Below are positions 1-7,308 of a DNA stretch of 7,308 nt, piece after piece. A model generated the notes under the pieces. It was not told the DNA's origin. It ran no database searches and saw only the letters and a program-made list of their open reading frames with translations. Where the stretch lies: assembly GCA_021160245.1 (NCBI GenBank), contig JAGHCW010000223.1:1-7308 (forward strand), given 5' to 3'. The stretch comes from a bacterium (lineage in GTDB: Bacteria > B130-G9). Each line of letters begins with the position of its first letter. Positions within the stretch are counted from its first letter, which is position 1. A program made the translations under genes and the position numbers.

Positions 1-720
1 CCCATCGTCTATACAACCTACGGCAATGAACGGGTCATAATTGATGGCTCGATAACCGTGAATGGGAACAACACAACTGTCTTGGGCATAGAGGTCACGA
101 ATACTGGCGCCTATCACACCAGCGGCATCCAAGTTGGGGGGGGCGATGACGTTAAAATCGTCAACTGCATCATTCACGATCTTGCTAATCATTCCAACGG
201 CATAGGTGGCTGGAGCGTAGGGTCGGGGCATGTATTCTATGGTAATAACATCTGGGGCATGGCTCCCGATGCTGGTGACCCGCACGGACATGGGATATAC
301 TCTCAGAATGAGGAAAAGTATGGCCTGAAGATTATCAGACATAATATTATTCACAACAACGGTAAGATGTCAATGCAGATCGGGGCCTCCGCGAAGAATA
401 CGTATGGCTATCGTATTACGGAAAATACTGTATTCAAGAATGCAAGATACTTGCTTTGTGGTTCTTCAGGTAGCCATGACAAACGCACATACAACAACAT
501 CATACGAGGCAATCTGCTCTATTCTCCTGCCGAAGGGGGGTACGGTGACAAAATCTCACTCGGCTATACTGGTGGGATATGTGATGACAACGAGGTCTAT
601 GATAACTACATCATTGGCGGGAATGCCACCAGGTTCTTAACAACCGGGCTGAGAAACATCATAACCCACAATACATTCTGTGACCGTGCGTGGCCATACG
701 CGACTTTGTGGGGGTCAGTT
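1..720 (+). other. Right-handed parallel beta-helix domain (pectate-lyase/NosD-like fold), N-terminally truncated
   Basis: The translation shows successive short rungs built on hydrophobic-x-hydrophobic plus Asn: VKIVNCIIHD (151-180), HVFYGNNIWGM (229-261), LKIIRHNIIHNNG (325-363), YRITENTVFKN (409-441), NNIIRGNLLYS (493-525), DNEVYDNYIIGG (586-621) and NIITHNTFCD (655-684). This Asn-ladder spacing of about 22-35 residues is typical of single-stranded parallel beta-helices. HGHGIY (283-300) resembles a recurrent motif in this family. In polysaccharide lyases of this fold the catalytic residues lie in a groove along the helix, but I cannot assign a catalytic set here, so a lyase, an epimerase or a non-catalytic binding domain are all possible. 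The segment is visibly more AT-rich than the rest of the gene (20 G+C of 60 at 301-360). Confidence 0.88.
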
Positions 721-3700
721 CAGCATGACCCTCCAGACCTATCCAACATCATGGACTACAATGTTCATTATCAAGATACTGCGGGGCGTGTCTTAATAAG
801 ATTCCGCCACGCAGATGACAGCTTGGTGGACTACACGCTGGACGACTGGCGGGTATTCTCGGGATTGGATGGGAACAGCATAGACGCTGGCGTCCATGAG
901 CCCACCGAGAACAAGATCGTCGTTCAGCCAAATGAATACGAAATCAAACGCGCAAGTATCGCCATCTACAACTGGGAGGGGCTTGACACCGTCAACGTGA
1001 ATGTCTCAGATGTGCTTTCCACCGGCGATTACTTCCGACTGATCAACGTCGAGGACTACTTTGGCGAGGCGGTTCTTGAGGGAACGTACGACGGCGCCGA
1101 CCTTCCCATTCCGATGGCGGGCGCTGAGTTCCTATGCTTTATCCTCTCCGCCTCATCGTTCACGCCTCCGGACGGCGAGGGCACATACGAGTTTTACACG
1201 ATCGCGACGGACAATGCTGGAAATGTCGAACTACCACCGGACAGCCCAGACGCAACCACAGTTTACGACCCGACGGCCCCGGTCTCCGGATGCTCCTGCC
1301 AAGACGCGGTCAACACGTCATCAATATCGATTCCCTTCTCCGCCTATGATGCGACAAGTCATGTCGCGACAACCAAGCTATACTACAGAACCGGAGGCAG
1401 CGGCTGGACCTTCTCCGGATTAACCAAATCCGGAACATCAGGCAGCTTCTCATTCCCATTCAATAGCGGCCAAGGGACCTACTACTTCTATTCTGCCGCT
1501 GAGGATAACGCGGGAAACACCGAGTCGCCCAAGGCCGGCCCGGATGCCTCGACCATATATGACACAACGAGACCATCCTCGAGCGGTTCATGCGGCGAGT
1601 ACTCAAAGTCGCTCCCGATGCACGTCCAGTTCACCGCCCAAGATGACGGTAGCGGAATAGCCTCAGTCCGCCTTTACTACAGCTTCAATGGTGGCGGCTT
1701 CGTCTATTCAGGTTTGGAGGAATCGGGCACTGCCGGCAATTTCGAGTTCTCCGCACCTGATGGTGAGGGTGAATACGCCTTCTACACAATCGCCATCGAT
1801 GCCGCCTCAAACAGTGAGGACGCTCCGCCATCTGCCGATTGCGCCGTTGTTTACGACGCCACGTGCCCAATCTCATCGTGCGACTCGCCTGAATACAGCA
1901 CGGGAGGAGCGATACAATTGGCCTTCTCTGCGTCCGATTCCGGCAGCGGCGTTGCTTTCTGTGACCTTCACGTCAAACATAACGATGGCGATTGGCAATC
2001 GACCGGCCTTCGCGAGTACGCCTCGTCAGGAAGCTTCTCTTATCAGCCGGCCTCAGGCGACGGGACATACAGCTTCTTTGTCTTGGCAACAGACAATGCG
2101 GGCAACCGCGAGCCTGAGAAGTCCGCAGAATCTAGCACACTCCGCGACACCCAAGAGCCAACTTCAAGTTGCCAGTCCGCCGATCTGACGAGCGCGGCCT
2201 CTGTGGACGTCCCATTCTCGTCGGATGACACCGGAAGCGGCGTCTCGCAGGTGAAGCTCTATTTCAGACTCGGCGAGTCGGATTGGGAGTATTCAGGTCT
2301 CGCAATCTCGGCAGAGTCCGGCGCCTTCAGCTTCCACTTCCCTCAAGGCGATGGCCTCTATGGTCTCCAAACGCTTGCCACTGACGCCGCCGGAAATGAG
2401 GAGACGCCAAGCGCGAATCCCGACACAACGGTTCTCTTTGACACAGCAGCGCCGAGCTCAATCTGCACAGCGCCGGCGACGGCCACCGACGGCTTTGACA
2501 TCGATTACTCGGCCGACGACGGGGAGGGCTCAGGCATCACACAGGTCGAGCTTTGGTTCAGACATTCATATAATAGCGGCGCGACCTGGGACCCTGACTG
2601 GTCTTACGCCGAGATGACGAAGAGCCCGGCAACCGGCAGCTTCTCGTATAGCCCAGCACTAGGCGAGGGCATCTATGAGTTCTATACAATCGCCACGGAC
2701 GCCGCGGACAACACAGAACAGCCGCCGGCCACAGCAGACTGCGCGACGGATTACATCACAGAAAAGCCCACGTCATGGGCATCGGCGCCCGACACCTCGA
2801 ATTCAAACCCGATCTCCATCTCGTTTATAGCAAGAGACTCAAGTGGCATCGACGAGGTTCAGCTCTGGTACCGCTACAGCCCAGAGGTCGTCCCTTACGA
2901 CTGGTCGGAGTTCTCCGACTCCAGCCTCAGGTCCGGCGAGACGGAGGGCACAATCAATTTCGGCGCTGAGGATTACGACGGTCAGGGGGCCTATCAGTTC
3001 TATACAATCGGCGTGGACCGCTCCGGCAACGTCGAGGACCCTCCATCCGATGCAGACTGTGAGACGCTCTACGATACAGAGCGACCGATAACGGTTCTCG
3101 TTTCTGCAGAGTACGCCTCCGACGCTTCGATCACATCGATCTTCGTAGCAGATGACAACCTATCTGGCATCGGTCTTGTGGAGCTATTCTCGCGGTATTC
3201 CGACGACAATGGCGAGTCCTTTGACAACTGGGCGTTCACGGGGCTTTATTCTGAGACCGCAACGAACATCTTCCAGTACTCCGCCGTTGACGGCGATGGC
3301 CTATATGAGTTTATGGCTCTTTCAACCGACGTCGCCGGCAATGTAGAGGACAAGGGCGATTCGGCAGACTGGCAAGTCCTGCTGGATACCGTGGCGCCTG
3401 TCGCGACGGCTTCATCCCTAGCCTATGCTACCGAGCTTCCGCTGCGAATAGACTTCGAGGCGTCCGACGGTGCAATTGGTTCGGGCGTTGCCTCGGTCGC
3501 GTTCTACTACAGATACAACCAGGGCGAGTGGCTCTTCACCGGTCTTAATTCCGACGGAACAGCTGGCACGGTCTTCTTCAATCCCGAAGAAGGCAATGGG
3601 ACATACGAGCTCATCGCGACAGCCAGCGATTTTGCTGGAAACTACGAGGCGCAATCCCAGCCGGTGGAGGCGTCCATTGTTCTTGACGACCAATCGCCAT

Positions 3701-6700
3701 ATTCGGCCGCCAGCTGTGATGAGTCCAGCAACATATCGGCTATACGGATTTCATATCAATCCCACAGCGGCGAGAGCGGCATAGAGAGCGTCGCTCTTTG
3801 GTTCCGCTTCAGCTCCGATGCCGGGGCGACATGGGAGCCAGACTGGACGGATACAGGTCTTGAGAGCGAGGCCCAGGTTGGGACGTTCAACTTCACGGCG
3901 GAGCATGGCGAGGGCAAGTACGAGCTCTATACTATCGCCATAAATAGTGCCGGAATGGAGGAGTTGCCGCCCCTGCAAGCCGACACGCACTGCATCTACG
4001 ACACCACGTGCCCAATATATCAACTGTCATCGCCCGAACTCTCAAACAACGACAGCATTCAAGTTGAATACTCAACGGATGATTCTGATGCGGGCAGCGG
4101 GATTCTGGCAATCCAGCTTTACTACAGCTTTGAGGGCAGCAGTTGGCAGGATTCAGGGCTCTCATTGAGCCAATCAACAGGGACATTCGACTTCACACCT
4201 CCACAGGGCGACGGAGTCTATGATTTCGCTGCAATCGCAACCGACCGGGCCGGGAACTCCACGGGTCAACCGACCGAGTCGCGGACTAGTACTCGCTTCG
4301 ACACGGCCTCGCCGAGCTCGACTCTCTTTGCGCCCGATGCGGTAGGCGCAAGCGACATGGAGATAGGCTACACAACTAGCGATTCGGCGGACCTGCTTCA
4401 CGTTGCACTCTACCTCAGATTCAGCGATGATTGCGGTGCCACGTGGCACACGGACTGGATGGACACGGGCCTTTTGGAAAGCGAACAAGATGGCATTTTC
4501 CAGCTTGCCCTCCCCTACGGTGAAGGTCTATATGAGTTCAGATCGAAAGCGACCGATCTCGGAGGCAATCAGGAGGATAAAGAAACCGCTGACGCAGTAA
4601 CGGTCCTCGACCAAACGTCTCCATCGTCCGAGATATTCACCTCCGAGTGCGCCTCACAAGGTACGGTTGAGATTAGCTTCGAGGCAACTGACGAGGGCTG
4701 CAGTTCTGGAGGACTTGCTGTTCGTCTGCACTTCAGGCGGGAGTTCCAAGAATGGGAGGAGGCAGATGTCTGGGGAGAGGGCACATACGGCACGATAAGC
4801 TTTGAACCGCCCTACGGTGAAGGCCTATATCAGTTCTACTGCCAGGCCGATGATTCAGCTGGAAATTCCGAGGCGCCAACATACGAATCCCAGATTGAGT
4901 CGCTATTTGACAGCACCCATCCGGAATCGACGTGCTCGGCGCCTCCATACAAAGCCGCGCCTCCTATAGAGATCGCCATTTGGGCCACAGACGCCACGAC
5001 GAGGCCGGTGGTAACGCAGCTTTACTACCGCTTTAGCCCGGAAGGCGCAGAGTGGAATCCCGATTGGACACTTGCGGGACAATATGAGGGGAGCTTTTCA
5101 AGATCAGTGCTCTTTGAGCCCACACACGGGCAGGGCATTTATCAGTTCTGCACAATCAGCATTGACGAGTGCGGAAATAGCGAGCAGCTTGGCGATACGC
5201 CCATTGTTGAATGCGCATTCGACCTTGCGCCGCCGATCTCGACGCTCACGAGTCCGGCCATGACCAACTCGACGCCGATTGAGCTTGAGTTCGCATCAAG
5301 CGACCTATTGAGCGGTGTCGCGTCTCTTGAGATATTCTATAGCCTCGCTGGAAGTGAATGGCTGCCGACCGGTCTCTCCTCCGAGGCAACCGCCGGGACG
5401 CTCCTCTTTGATGAGGCGGAAGAACAAGGCATTTACACGTTCTTCTGCGCAGCGACTGACATGGCCGGCAATGTTGAGTCGCCGGCAACAGGGATGAGCG
5501 ACTATCATCAGACGGTCGCCAGCAGCAACACAATTCAGGTTCACGTTGACTACGATCCGCCCGTGTCAAACGCCTCGACTCCGAACTTCGCCAATTCATT
5601 GCCGCTCGAGATCACTTGCCAATCCACCGACGGCACAGTCGGCATAGGAACCGCGCATGTTGAGCTCTACTACAGACTCGAGGGCGGCCTGTGGCAATCC
5701 GCGGGCATCAGTCAAGAATATGGCACCGGCGCAACGTTCACGTTCAGTCCAGTCCAGGGCGACGGCCTCTATGGATTCTTTACGATCGCGACCGATTTCG
5801 TCGGCAACATAGAGGCGATGAAGGATGAGGCCGATACTCAAATCCTGCTGGACAGGAATAGCCCAAACTCGCTCGCATCCTGCGCCCCGTTCTTCACAAA
5901 GTCTGAGCTTGCAGTATCCTACGTCGCTGATAGCGGCATGTGCGACATTGACCGCGTTGCCGTTTGGTTCAGGCATTCTGACGGCCTGGAATGGACAGAA
6001 TGGGCTGATTCAGGAGTTGCTGGCGATGCCACCTCCGCCACACTGAACCTCGAGGCTGAGAATGGTGACGGAATATACGAATTCTATACTAAGGCAAGCG
6101 ATCTATGTGGAAATGTGGAGCTGTCGCCCAGCGTGGCCGATTGCAGCACATCGCTGGACACAACGCCACCATTGTGCCAGATATCCGTTCCGGACTTCGC
6201 GAGCAAATCCACAATACTAGTCGAATACGTCTGCGGGGATGGCCCGGTCGGATCCGGTCCCGCTGAGATCGAATTCTGGATCAGAAAAGACGAGGCGAGC
6301 TGGCAGCTATTGCCAGAATCTGGTTTCGGCGCCTACGGAGCCATCGAGATATACATAAACTCCGGAGAGGGTCAATACGAACTCGCGGCCGTCCCGACCG
6401 ATGCGGCCGGCAACTCGGCTGACCTTCCCGAGCATGCGGGCGCCTCGTTCGTGCTGGATTCTCATCATCCCACCTCGCAGCTCGTTTGCGAGGGATATGT
6501 AACCGCGCCGGTTGCGGTGCTTGAGCTTTCTGCAGAGGACAACCTATCCGGCGTTTCATGGACGCGGATATGGCAGAGGGGCTCAGGGGAGGCCTGGACT
6601 CCAACGGAGTACATTACGTCCTCTACTCAATCCTCAATAGAGGTCTTCCTTGAAGATGGTCAGGGAAGGTATGAGTTCTGCTCCATCTCAATGGACAGGG

Positions 6701-7299
6701 CGGGCAATCTGGAGCCGCTTCCTCAAGATGCGGAATGCACGCTGGACTACGATGTCGAGTACCCCACGTCTTCGTGCTCGGGCCCTTCATATTCCAAGGA
6801 CAGCCCGATTGCAGTAGCATTCGAGGCCTCGGATGCACACACGGACATTGCCAAAGTAACGCTTTGGGCTGGCTTCGGCGGCTCCGCTCTTTCGCCCGTT
6901 GATACTAAACAAGGACAGGCCTCAGGCACGTTCGATTTCGTTCCGATCAATGGCGAAGGCGCGTATCGCTTTGCCGTCCAGGCTGAGGATGCGGCCGGTA
7001 ATATCGAGAGAAATCCCACGACGCATGACGTGAGCGTTGTCTATGATTGCACGCCTCCGTCCGTAAGCTGTTCAGCCCCATCGGCAACTTCGAGCTCGCC
7101 GATTACGGTTCACTTCAACGCTACCGATGGCTGCTCGGGAATTTTAGAGGTGAAGCTCTACTTCAAACTCGGTGGCGATAGTTGGTGCCACACCGGCTTT
7201 ACCAGCACATTCGGAAATGGCACAGCGGAATTCACGCCAACGGACGGCGATGGCGAATATGATTTCTGCGTCATGCCGAGGACCGCGCCGGCAATATGA
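1..7299 (+). CDS. Giant secreted/surface protein: right-handed beta-helix head plus about 20 Ig-like repeats (partial at both ends)
   Basis: The frame is open from base 1 to TGA at 7297-7299, 2,432 codons. The first GTG (58) is not a convincing start: it has no Shine-Dalgarno, and the upstream codons encode PIVYTTYGNERVIIDGS, a typical opening of parallel beta-helix proteins, so the true start and any signal peptide lie upstream. Domains in order: beta-helix (codons 1-240), beta-rich closing domain (about 241-384), half an Ig-like repeat (386-422), then twenty Ig-like repeats (423 onward). No transmembrane segment, sorting signal, dockerin or LPXTG-like motif is visible. The TGA is probably a frameshift artefact, since the conserved D-x-A-G-N motif continues in another frame from 7275. 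From family knowledge, such proteins are exported, and the helix often binds or cleaves polysaccharide. The stalk-like role of the array is inference, and the substrate is unknown. The reading frame itself is certain; the product class is well supported. Confidence 0.93.
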   Translation, partial: PIVYTTYGNERVIIDGSITVNGNNTTVLGIEVTNTGAYHTSGIQVGGGDDVKIVNCIIHDLANHSNGIGGWSVGSGHVFYGNNIWGMAPDAGDPHGHGIYSQNEEKYGLKIIRHNIIHNNGKMSMQIGASAKNTYGYRITENTVFKNARYLLCGSSGSHDKRTYNNIIRGNLLYSPAEGGYGDKISLGYTGGICDDNEVYDNYIIGGNATRFLTTGLRNIITHNTFCDRAWPYATLWGSVQHDPPDLSNIMDYNVHYQDTAGRVLIRFRHADDSLVDYTLDDWRVFSGLDGNSIDAGVHEPTENKIVVQPNEYEIKRASIAIYNWEGLDTVNVNVSDVLSTGDYFRLINVEDYFGEAVLEGTYDGADLPIPMAGAEFLCFILSASSFTPPDGEGTYEFYTIATDNAGNVELPPDSPDATTVYDPTAPVSGCSCQDAVNTSSISIPFSAYDATSHVATTKLYYRTGGSGWTFSGLTKSGTSGSFSFPFNSGQGTYYFYSAAEDNAGNTESPKAGPDASTIYDTTRPSSSGSCGEYSKSLPMHVQFTAQDDGSGIASVRLYYSFNGGGFVYSGLEESGTAGNFEFSAPDGEGEYAFYTIAIDAASNSEDAPPSADCAVVYDATCPISSCDSPEYSTGGAIQLAFSASDSGSGVAFCDLHVKHNDGDWQSTGLREYASSGSFSYQPASGDGTYSFFVLATDNAGNREPEKSAESSTLRDTQEPTSSCQSADLTSAASVDVPFSSDDTGSGVSQVKLYFRLGESDWEYSGLAISAESGAFSFHFPQGDGLYGLQTLATDAAGNEETPSANPDTTVLFDTAAPSSICTAPATATDGFDIDYSADDGEGSGITQVELWFRHSYNSGATWDPDWSYAEMTKSPATGSFSYSPALGEGIYEFYTIATDAADNTEQPPATADCATDYITEKPTSWASAPDTSNSNPISISFIARDSSGIDEVQLWYRYSPEVVPYDWSEFSDSSLRSGETEGTINFGAEDYDGQGAYQFYTIGVDRSGNVEDPPSDADCETLYDTERPITVLVSAEYASDASITSIFVADDNLSGIGLVELFSRYSDDNGESFDNWAFTGLYSETATNIFQYSAVDGDGLYEFMALSTDVAGNVEDKGDSADWQVLLDTVAPVATASSLAYATELPLRIDFEASDGAIGSGVASVAFYYRYNQGEWLFTGLNSDGTAGTVFFNPEEGNGTYELIATASDFAGNYEAQSQPVEASIVLDDQSPYSAASCDESSNISAIRISYQSHSGESGIESVALWFRFSSDAGATWEPDWTDTGLESEAQVGTFNFTAEHGEGKYELYTIAINSAGMEELPPLQADTHCIYDTTCPIYQLSSPELSNNDSIQVEYSTDDSDAGSGILAIQLYYSFEGSSWQDSGLSLSQSTGTFDFTPPQGDGVYDFAAIATDRAGNSTGQPTESRTSTRFDTASPSSTLFAPDAVGASDMEIGYTTSDSADLLHVALYLRFSDDCGATWHTDWMDTGLLESEQDGIFQLALPYGEGLYEFRSKATDLGGNQEDKETADAVTVLDQTSPSSEIFTSECASQGTVEISFEATDEGCSSGGLAVRLHFRREFQEWEEADVWGEGTYGTISFEPPYGEGLYQFYCQADDSAGNSEAPTYESQIESLFDSTHPESTCSAPPYKAAPPIEIAIWATDATTRPVVTQLYYRFSPEGAEWNPDWTLAGQYEGSFSRSVLFEPTHGQGIYQFCTISIDECGNSEQLGDTPIVECAFDLAPPISTLTSPAMTNSTPIELEFASSDLLSGVASLEIFYSLAGSEWLPTGLSSEATAGTLLFDEAEEQGIYTFFCAATDMAGNVESPATGMSDYHQTVASSNTIQVHVDYDPPVSNASTPNFANSLPLEITCQSTDGTVGIGTAHVELYYRLEGGLWQSAGISQEYGTGATFTFSPVQGDGLYGFFTIATDFVGNIEAMKDEADTQILLDRNSPNSLASCAPFFTKSELAVSYVADSGMCDIDRVAVWFRHSDGLEWTEWADSGVAGDATSATLNLEAENGDGIYEFYTKASDLCGNVELSPSVADCSTSLDTTPPLCQISVPDFASKSTILVEYVCGDGPVGSGPAEIEFWIRKDEASWQLLPESGFGAYGAIEIYINSGEGQYELAAVPTDAAGNSADLPEHAGASFVLDSHHPTSQLVCEGYVTAPVAVLELSAEDNLSGVSWTRIWQRGSGEAWTPTEYITSSTQSSIEVFLEDGQGRYEFCSISMDRAGNLEPLPQDAECTLDYDVEYPTSSCSGPSYSKDSPIAVAFEASDAHTDIAKVTLWAGFGGSALSPVDTKQGQASGTFDFVPINGEGAYRFAVQAEDAAGNIERNPTTHDVSVVYDCTPPSVSCSAPSATSSSPITVHFNATDGCSGILEVKLYFKLGGDSWCHTGFTSTFGNGTAEFTPTDGDGEYDFCVMPRTAPAI
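721..1152 (+). other. Connector and C-terminal beta-rich domain of the beta-helix module
   Basis: The segment begins with the end of the helix and a connector with WRVFSGLDGNSI (847-882), which resembles the W-x-x-x-S/T-G-x-D-x-N-S stretch often found after such helices. From about 919 it reads VVQPNEYEIKRASIAIYNW, then a VNVNVSDVLSTGDYFRLINV segment, DYFGEAV, GTYDG and LPIPM, ending with AEFLCFIL (1126-1146). This order (Asn-Glu, an R-A-x-I-A-I-Y-N-W strand, a Val-rich strand, G-D-x-F-x-L-x-N, D-Y-F-G, G-x-Y-D-G, P-M, E-F-x-x-F-I-L) is one I recognise from the C-termini of secreted bacterial beta-helix proteins, where the F-I-L strand is normally near the end of the polypeptide. Here the chain runs on into Ig-like repeats. 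A formal family name cannot be given from sequence alone. Confidence 0.7.
1156..1266 (+). repeat. Half Ig-like repeat (R0), first half missing
   Basis: SFTPPDGEGTYEFYTIATD followed by NAGNVELPP and a short linker matches the second half of every later repeat (F-x-P-x-x-G-E-G-x-Y-E-F-Y-T-I-A-T-D-x-A-G-N-x-E). The first half (D-x-x-x-P linker, the V-x-F-x-A-x-D strand and the L-Y-Y-R strand, about 60 residues) is absent. It is joined directly to the last strand of the preceding beta-rich domain. This may be the scar of a deletion or recombination that fused the head to the array, or it may mean that the true structural unit is permuted relative to the boundaries I use. Confidence 0.8.
1267..2439 (+). 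repeat. Ig-like repeats R1-R4, uniform short form
   Basis: These are four units of 98, 98, 97 and 98 residues, the most regular part of the array. All have the short central hairpin (for example LYYRTGGSGWTFSGL in R1 and LYFRLGESDWEYSGL in R4). R3 departs from the consensus, with DLHVKHNDGDWQSTGL in place of the L-Y-Y-R strand and FFVLATDNAGN in place of F-Y-T-I-A-T-D. R2 has AIDAASN where other units have A-T-D-x-A-G-N. Cysteine is frequent near unit boundaries (SGCSC, SGSC, ADC, TCPISSC, TSSC). Confidence 0.85.
2440..5547 (+). repeat. Ig-like repeats R5-R14, mixed long and short hairpin forms
   Basis: R5, R6, R7, R9, R11 and R13 have an enlarged central hairpin, best seen as LWFRHSYNSGATWDPDW in R5, LWFRFSSDAGATWEPDW in R9 and LYLRFSDDCGATWHTDW in R11. 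R8, R10, R12 and R14 keep the short form. R8, R10 and R12 also carry extra residues in the loop before L-Y-Y-R (DGAIGSG, DSDAGSG, DEGCSSGG). From R7 to R14 the forms therefore alternate long and short. R6 has a degenerate linker (ITEKP instead of D-x-T-x-P). R14 is the longest unit at 109 residues because of an extension after D-x-A-G-N that contains SDYHQTVASSN. Confidence 0.83.
5548..7044 (+). repeat. Ig-like repeats R15-R19
   Basis: These are five units of 101, 102, 100, 98 and 98 residues. R15 and R17 have the expanded loop before the central strand (TDGTVGIGTAHV, GDGPVGSGPAEI), while R16, R18 and R19 lack it. R16 has an intermediate hairpin (VWFRHSDGLEWTEWADSG). R18 and R19 are divergent: R18 reads RIWQRGSGEAWTPTEY, and R19 reads LWAGFGGSALSPV and lacks the conserved Trp. 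The D-x-A-G-N core is mostly kept (DFVGN in R15, DLCGN in R16, DAAGN in R17 and R19, DRAGN in R18). Confidence 0.83.
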
Positions 7300-7308
7300 A
7301 CCCTATAG
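7045..7308 (+). repeat. Ig-like repeat R20, interrupted by a probable frameshift and by the window end
   Basis: The unit begins normally with DCTPPSVSCSAP, SPITVHFNATD, VKLYFKLGGDSWCHTGF and GDGEYDFCVM (to about 7275). The consensus then requires A-x-D-x-A-G-N, but the main frame gives PRTAPAI and a stop. The frame starting at 7275 gives AEDRAGNMNPI and stays open to the last complete codon. The repeat, and therefore the protein, most likely continues past the window. Confidence 0.85.
7272..7308 (+). other. Probable one-base deletion that creates the terminal stop
   Basis: The frame-3 codons from 7275 encode A-E-D-R-A-G-N-M-N-P-I, closely matching the same place in the preceding unit (QAEDAAGNIERNP). 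Restoring one base between 7273 and 7275, for example ATG-GCC or ATT-GCC in place of ATGCC, joins the two frames without any other change. It lies within 36 bases of the window end, where read coverage at a contig edge is often poor, so a sequencing or assembly error is the simplest cause. A genuine inactivating mutation is the alternative. Confidence 0.82.

Follow-up and report, generated by a model that had tools for sequence, protein, structure and literature searches.

A stop codon near a contig end in a gene for a giant Ig-repeat protein probably reflects a one-base sequencing or assembly deficit

Does the TGA close to the end of contig C78 mark the C-terminus of the protein encoded there, or does the protein continue beyond it? 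The window analysed here is the whole of this contig, 7,308 bases long and one of 244 in a 3.43 Mb draft genome, and its main frame runs unbroken from base 1 up to that stop. This frame, whose final residues are GDGEYDFCVMPRTAPAI, is colinear with residues 1342-3749 of a 3772-aa open frame on contig C34 of the relative G001, at 49% identity. A sequence-only reading of the window had proposed that the stop, which it took to be the only one, arises from a frameshift of one base inside an Ig-like repeat, and that an annotation ending at 7299 would report a false C-terminus and hide the continuation of the protein. The first of these statements is wrong in one respect, in that a second stop follows in the same frame (Table 1). 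Our own reading is that the gene continues past 7299, that C78 carries the middle part of a gene split between contigs, and that the one-base deficit is an artefact of sequencing or assembly at the contig end; we put its probability at about 0.86.

Table 1. Positions of the features discussed, numbered on the window.
Feature	Position	Strand	Remarks
Main frame 1	1..7299	+	Open at the 5' end, 2432 aa; would be the central stretch of a ~4,200-aa giant protein
Beta-helix-like segment	1..1150 (end approximate)	+	PF13229 Beta_helix found in the part of the G001 orthologue that is colinear with it
Ig-like repeats	1165..7275	+	Half repeat and 19 complete repeats, ~98-105 aa each, then the start of repeat 20
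Last in-frame codons of repeat 20, YDFCVM	7258..7275	+	Predicted to break off within strand six of the Ig-like fold
Frame-change site	7273..7275	+	One base short relative to orthologues; tblastn split and DNA alignment gap
35-base exact overlap with C155	7274..7308	+	L003:12131-12165, the first 35 bases of the C155 reverse strand
True tail frame, AEDRAGNMNPI	7275..7307	+	Continues on the reverse strand of L003 as far as the stop at 10764-10766
Apparent stop TGA	7297..7299	+	Out of frame relative to the conserved protein
Second stop TAG	7306..7308	+	Same shifted frame as the TGA at 7297-7299

The repeats offer an internal standard against which the end of the main frame can be judged. Twenty cores of the form Y.F...A.D.AGN lie upstream of the broken one, the first (Y codon at 1186) in a half repeat and the remaining 19 in full repeats, and the earlier numbering of the repeat with its core at 7258 as the twentieth is therefore right. 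A frame scan bears out that the main frame departs from the repeat core after GDGEYDFCVM and then meets the TGA: it reads YDFCVM-PRTAPAI-stop, while the +3 frame from 7275 reads AEDRAGNMNPI, which had been recognised as the expected core. When core columns 7-13 were compared using a position matrix built from the 20 other cores, PRTAPAI scored -10.4 bits, against +18.9 bits for AEDRAGN. The latter is the best of the 12,141 out-of-frame 7-mers in the window, the runner-up scoring 10.4 bits, and 200,000 shuffles of the tail never reached its score. The match of this frame to the repeat core is not a matter of chance. The 7.3 kb contain no other frame break, and this one comes 34 bases before the contig end, a proximity that a random position would attain ~0.5% of the time.

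Modelling of a single repeat (window 2422-2784, with an alignment of 13 other repeats) predicts a seven-stranded beta-sandwich with a pLDDT of 95.2, in which the core YEFYTIATD sits in the sixth strand. On this model an end at 7299 would be unlike the stable C-terminus that one would expect, because the sixth strand would be cut short and the seventh lost.

The sequence-only reading had asked whether the +3 frame would stay open into further repeats if the contig were extended, and the draft genome itself provides such an extension. A genome search with the last 409 bases of the window found a single other place, the end of contig C155 on its reverse strand. The overlap lies at the very end of this contig of 12,165 bases, and its sequence occurs at two places in the genome, the ends of C78 and C155, and at no others. 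Read in reverse, C155 starts at window base 7274, and its frame 2, which corresponds to the +3 frame of the window, is open for 466 aa up to the stop at L003:10764. It completes repeat 20 and goes on with a further Ig-like repeat, a HYDIN/choice-of-anchor-D domain (PF22544, E 3.8e-11; NF012200, E 5e-13) and ~230 aa made up of two similar C-terminal units. The last unit recurs throughout the genome; at most of the other loci checked it ends within 10 residues of a stop, which makes the stop on C155 a credible true C-terminus of the protein. The end at 7299 is almost certainly false and would, as claimed, have hidden a continuation. Neither an exact scan of GTDB contigs for the 35-base overlap nor a protein scan using the C155 product gave relatives.

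We also compared the locus with three genomes of the same family that belong to two other genera (G001 and G003 to one, G002 to the other). Orthologues in all three are uninterrupted at the site and read across it in one frame throughout, so homologues do not end where the window's main frame does. By tblastn, residues 1-937 of the orthologue on G002:C317 match window 4429-7275 at 46% identity, and residues 938-1401 match C155 from base 2 at 47.5%. Base 2 of the C155 reverse strand is window base 7275, and the codon at 7273-7275 pairs with G002 residue 937; since residue 937 ends and residue 938 starts on base 7275, one base is used twice. The protein on G003:C133 behaves likewise, with 50% identity before the site and 47.5% after it. 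Aligned as DNA with G001 and G003, the window needs a single one-base gap at 7274/7275 and shows no other indel between 7200 and ~7288, in agreement with the earlier proposal that one base is missing at 7273-7275. Conservation is thus 46-50% before the site and 47-48% after it, and from this equality we conclude that the downstream part is not decaying and is still under selection.

The G001 orthologue is itself divided between contigs. Its 3,772-aa frame on C34 comprises an N-terminal region, peptidase C25, repeats, the beta-helix and further repeats, ending just past the core of repeat 20, while the next piece sits on G001:C123 and begins in the following repeat. The two contigs do not overlap, and the split falls within ~100 bases of the equivalent place; this coincidence could be due to chance or to a stretch that is hard to sequence.

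How, then, might the deficit have come about? We propose that a gene encoding a giant and probably secreted protein is split over several contigs, of which the window would be the middle one. Where C78 overlaps the start of C155, in its final 35 bases, sequencing or assembly would have dropped one base at 7273-7275, at a contig end with poor support; this loss would have shifted the frame and created the stops at 7297 and 7306. C155 starts exactly at the break site, window base 7274. Among 46 contig ends sampled from the assembly, the other joined ends, all in one cluster of contigs (C1, C14 and C15), overlap by 101 bases, and the overlap of 35 bases here therefore looks like a coverage or graph gap, probably with thin read support at the junction. 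A start of C155 at 7274 through a graph branch between two variants was rejected, since such a branch should leave a 101-base overlap. A hairpin, TGCCG...CGGCA at 7274-7293, begins at the break (the fold of 7268-7300 has -9.0 kcal/mol with RNA parameters), and it might have hindered reads. We favour an error over a real mutation because the sole frame break of the window lies near a contig end, because C155 starts at the break and because the overlap is short, and we infer from these circumstances that the deficit is most likely an artefact rather than an allele. Against this reading, C155 begins at the site and gives no independent base to the left of 7274.

The deficit could instead be real, a recent frameshift that is carried by the strain, or by some of the population sampled, and yields a truncated allele. 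A mixture of strains or of gene copies is hinted at by the 917-base overlap of the window with a further contig, C83, at 86% identity, and polymorphism at the site could also explain why the contig breaks there. However, only by coincidence would such a mutation lie both 34 bases from a contig end and at the very point where C155 starts, and if the graph held a plain polymorphism, the contigs should share the usual overlap (101 bases where it was seen) rather than 35. The 466 aa downstream, which are free of stops and show no loss of conservation relative to the orthologues, likewise speak against it, and we regard a real frameshift as unlikely. The further proposition that some cells lack the conserved C-terminal domain of this giant C25/Ig-repeat protein while others make the full form is more doubtful again; if it were true, the protein without that domain would perhaps be released, or not exported.

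Three other explanations fare worse. C155 might derive from a paralogue, the 35-base match being a repeat motif common to both, in a genome that holds well over a hundred related repeat matches; yet the 35 bases match nowhere else in that genome, and the same genes of G002 and G003 span first the window and then C155 with unbroken residue numbering, so that this account is very improbable. Programmed -1 ribosomal frameshifting deserves almost no credence: although the frame would formally be regained by a shift of -1 at 7275, no slippery heptamer of the form X XXY YYZ occurs within 7200-7302, and the orthologues in three genomes have a single frame without any change. That 7297 is a genuine C-terminus, as the sequence as given would have it, with the +3 match arising by chance, is refuted by the score of that match among the 12,141 7-mers and 200,000 shuffles, by the 466-aa continuation and by orthologues that do not end there.

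Thus the stop at 7297 is almost certainly not a real feature of the gene. Correcting the frame avoids both a false C-terminus and a false annotation of two genes, and joins C78 with C155, and probably with C83, in a single gene whose protein would have ~4,200 aa; otherwise we see here an ordinary quality issue of repeat-rich genes in draft assemblies. We searched the literature for studies dealing directly with indels near the ends of metagenome contigs and found no direct match. A comparable situation is that of Vibrio fischeri ES114, where comparison had put 82 loci under suspicion: on resequencing, 75 of them proved to hold errors, frameshifts for the most part, and five loci were described as real pseudogenes (PMC2330054). 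As in those cases, a small indel truncates or splits a gene whose orthologues read straight through, and the corrected frame completes a domain. The Vibrio fischeri errors were confirmed by resequencing, whereas the frameshift here is deduced from comparison rather than from reads, and, unlike those, it lies at a contig end with the rest of the gene on another contig.

The order of parts in the complete protein would be an N-terminal peptidase C25 with Ig-like repeats, a beta-helix, 20-21 Ig-like repeats, choice-of-anchor D and a C-terminal domain. Peptidase family C25 (PF01364) is matched by G001:C34 (E 3e-60) and by contig C83 (E 2e-57). The domain lies outside the window, and C83, with its peptidase C25 and repeats, is probably the 5' part of the same gene, judging from colinearity with G001:C34. 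The reverse strand of C83 at 9625-10544 (L007) overlaps window 1-917 at 86% DNA identity; per 100-base block the identity is 84-96% up to base 700 and ~63-77% towards the end of C83, and over half of the differences fall at third codon positions. This overlap may represent two strain versions or two copies.

The beta-helix was recognised in the G001 orthologue, where residues 1378-1506 match PF13229 (E 1e-6); a Pfam search returned no match for the corresponding segment of the window, 1..1150. The segment, ~400 aa long (window 1-1230; L084, G001:C34), is apparently inserted within an Ig-like repeat: the first half of the repeat lies ahead of the beta-helix, as seen in C83 and in G001, while FTPPDGEGTYEFYTIATDNAGN, its second half, comes after the beta-helix, an arrangement kept in two genera.

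The repeats themselves give a Big_13 (PF19077) profile match in the window of 129.4 bits (E 8.5e-38) against a curated cut-off of 27. A Foldseek search with the repeat model found generic FNIII and Ig-like folds, the best match being the FNIII domain 1va9 (E 7.9e-4), and the repeat sequence matches PDB chain 2yn3_A weakly (28 bits, E 1.6e-5). The family has tandem repeats of ~100 aa in common with large proteins that carry bacterial Ig-like domains in tandem (Big_13, with 2yn3 as the nearest solved sequence), but differs from them in adding peptidase C25, beta-helix and choice-of-anchor D domains.

The C-terminal unit of ~115 aa (L003:10764-11462, reverse; loci L058-L077) ends many other proteins of the genome. 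It has no match in Pfam or NCBIfam, and it might be a candidate sorting or anchoring domain. Genome-wide there are more than 100 related repeat matches on many contigs, in open frames of 1,000-3,700 aa; to judge by these sequence matches, this lineage possesses a large complement of giant Ig-repeat proteins.
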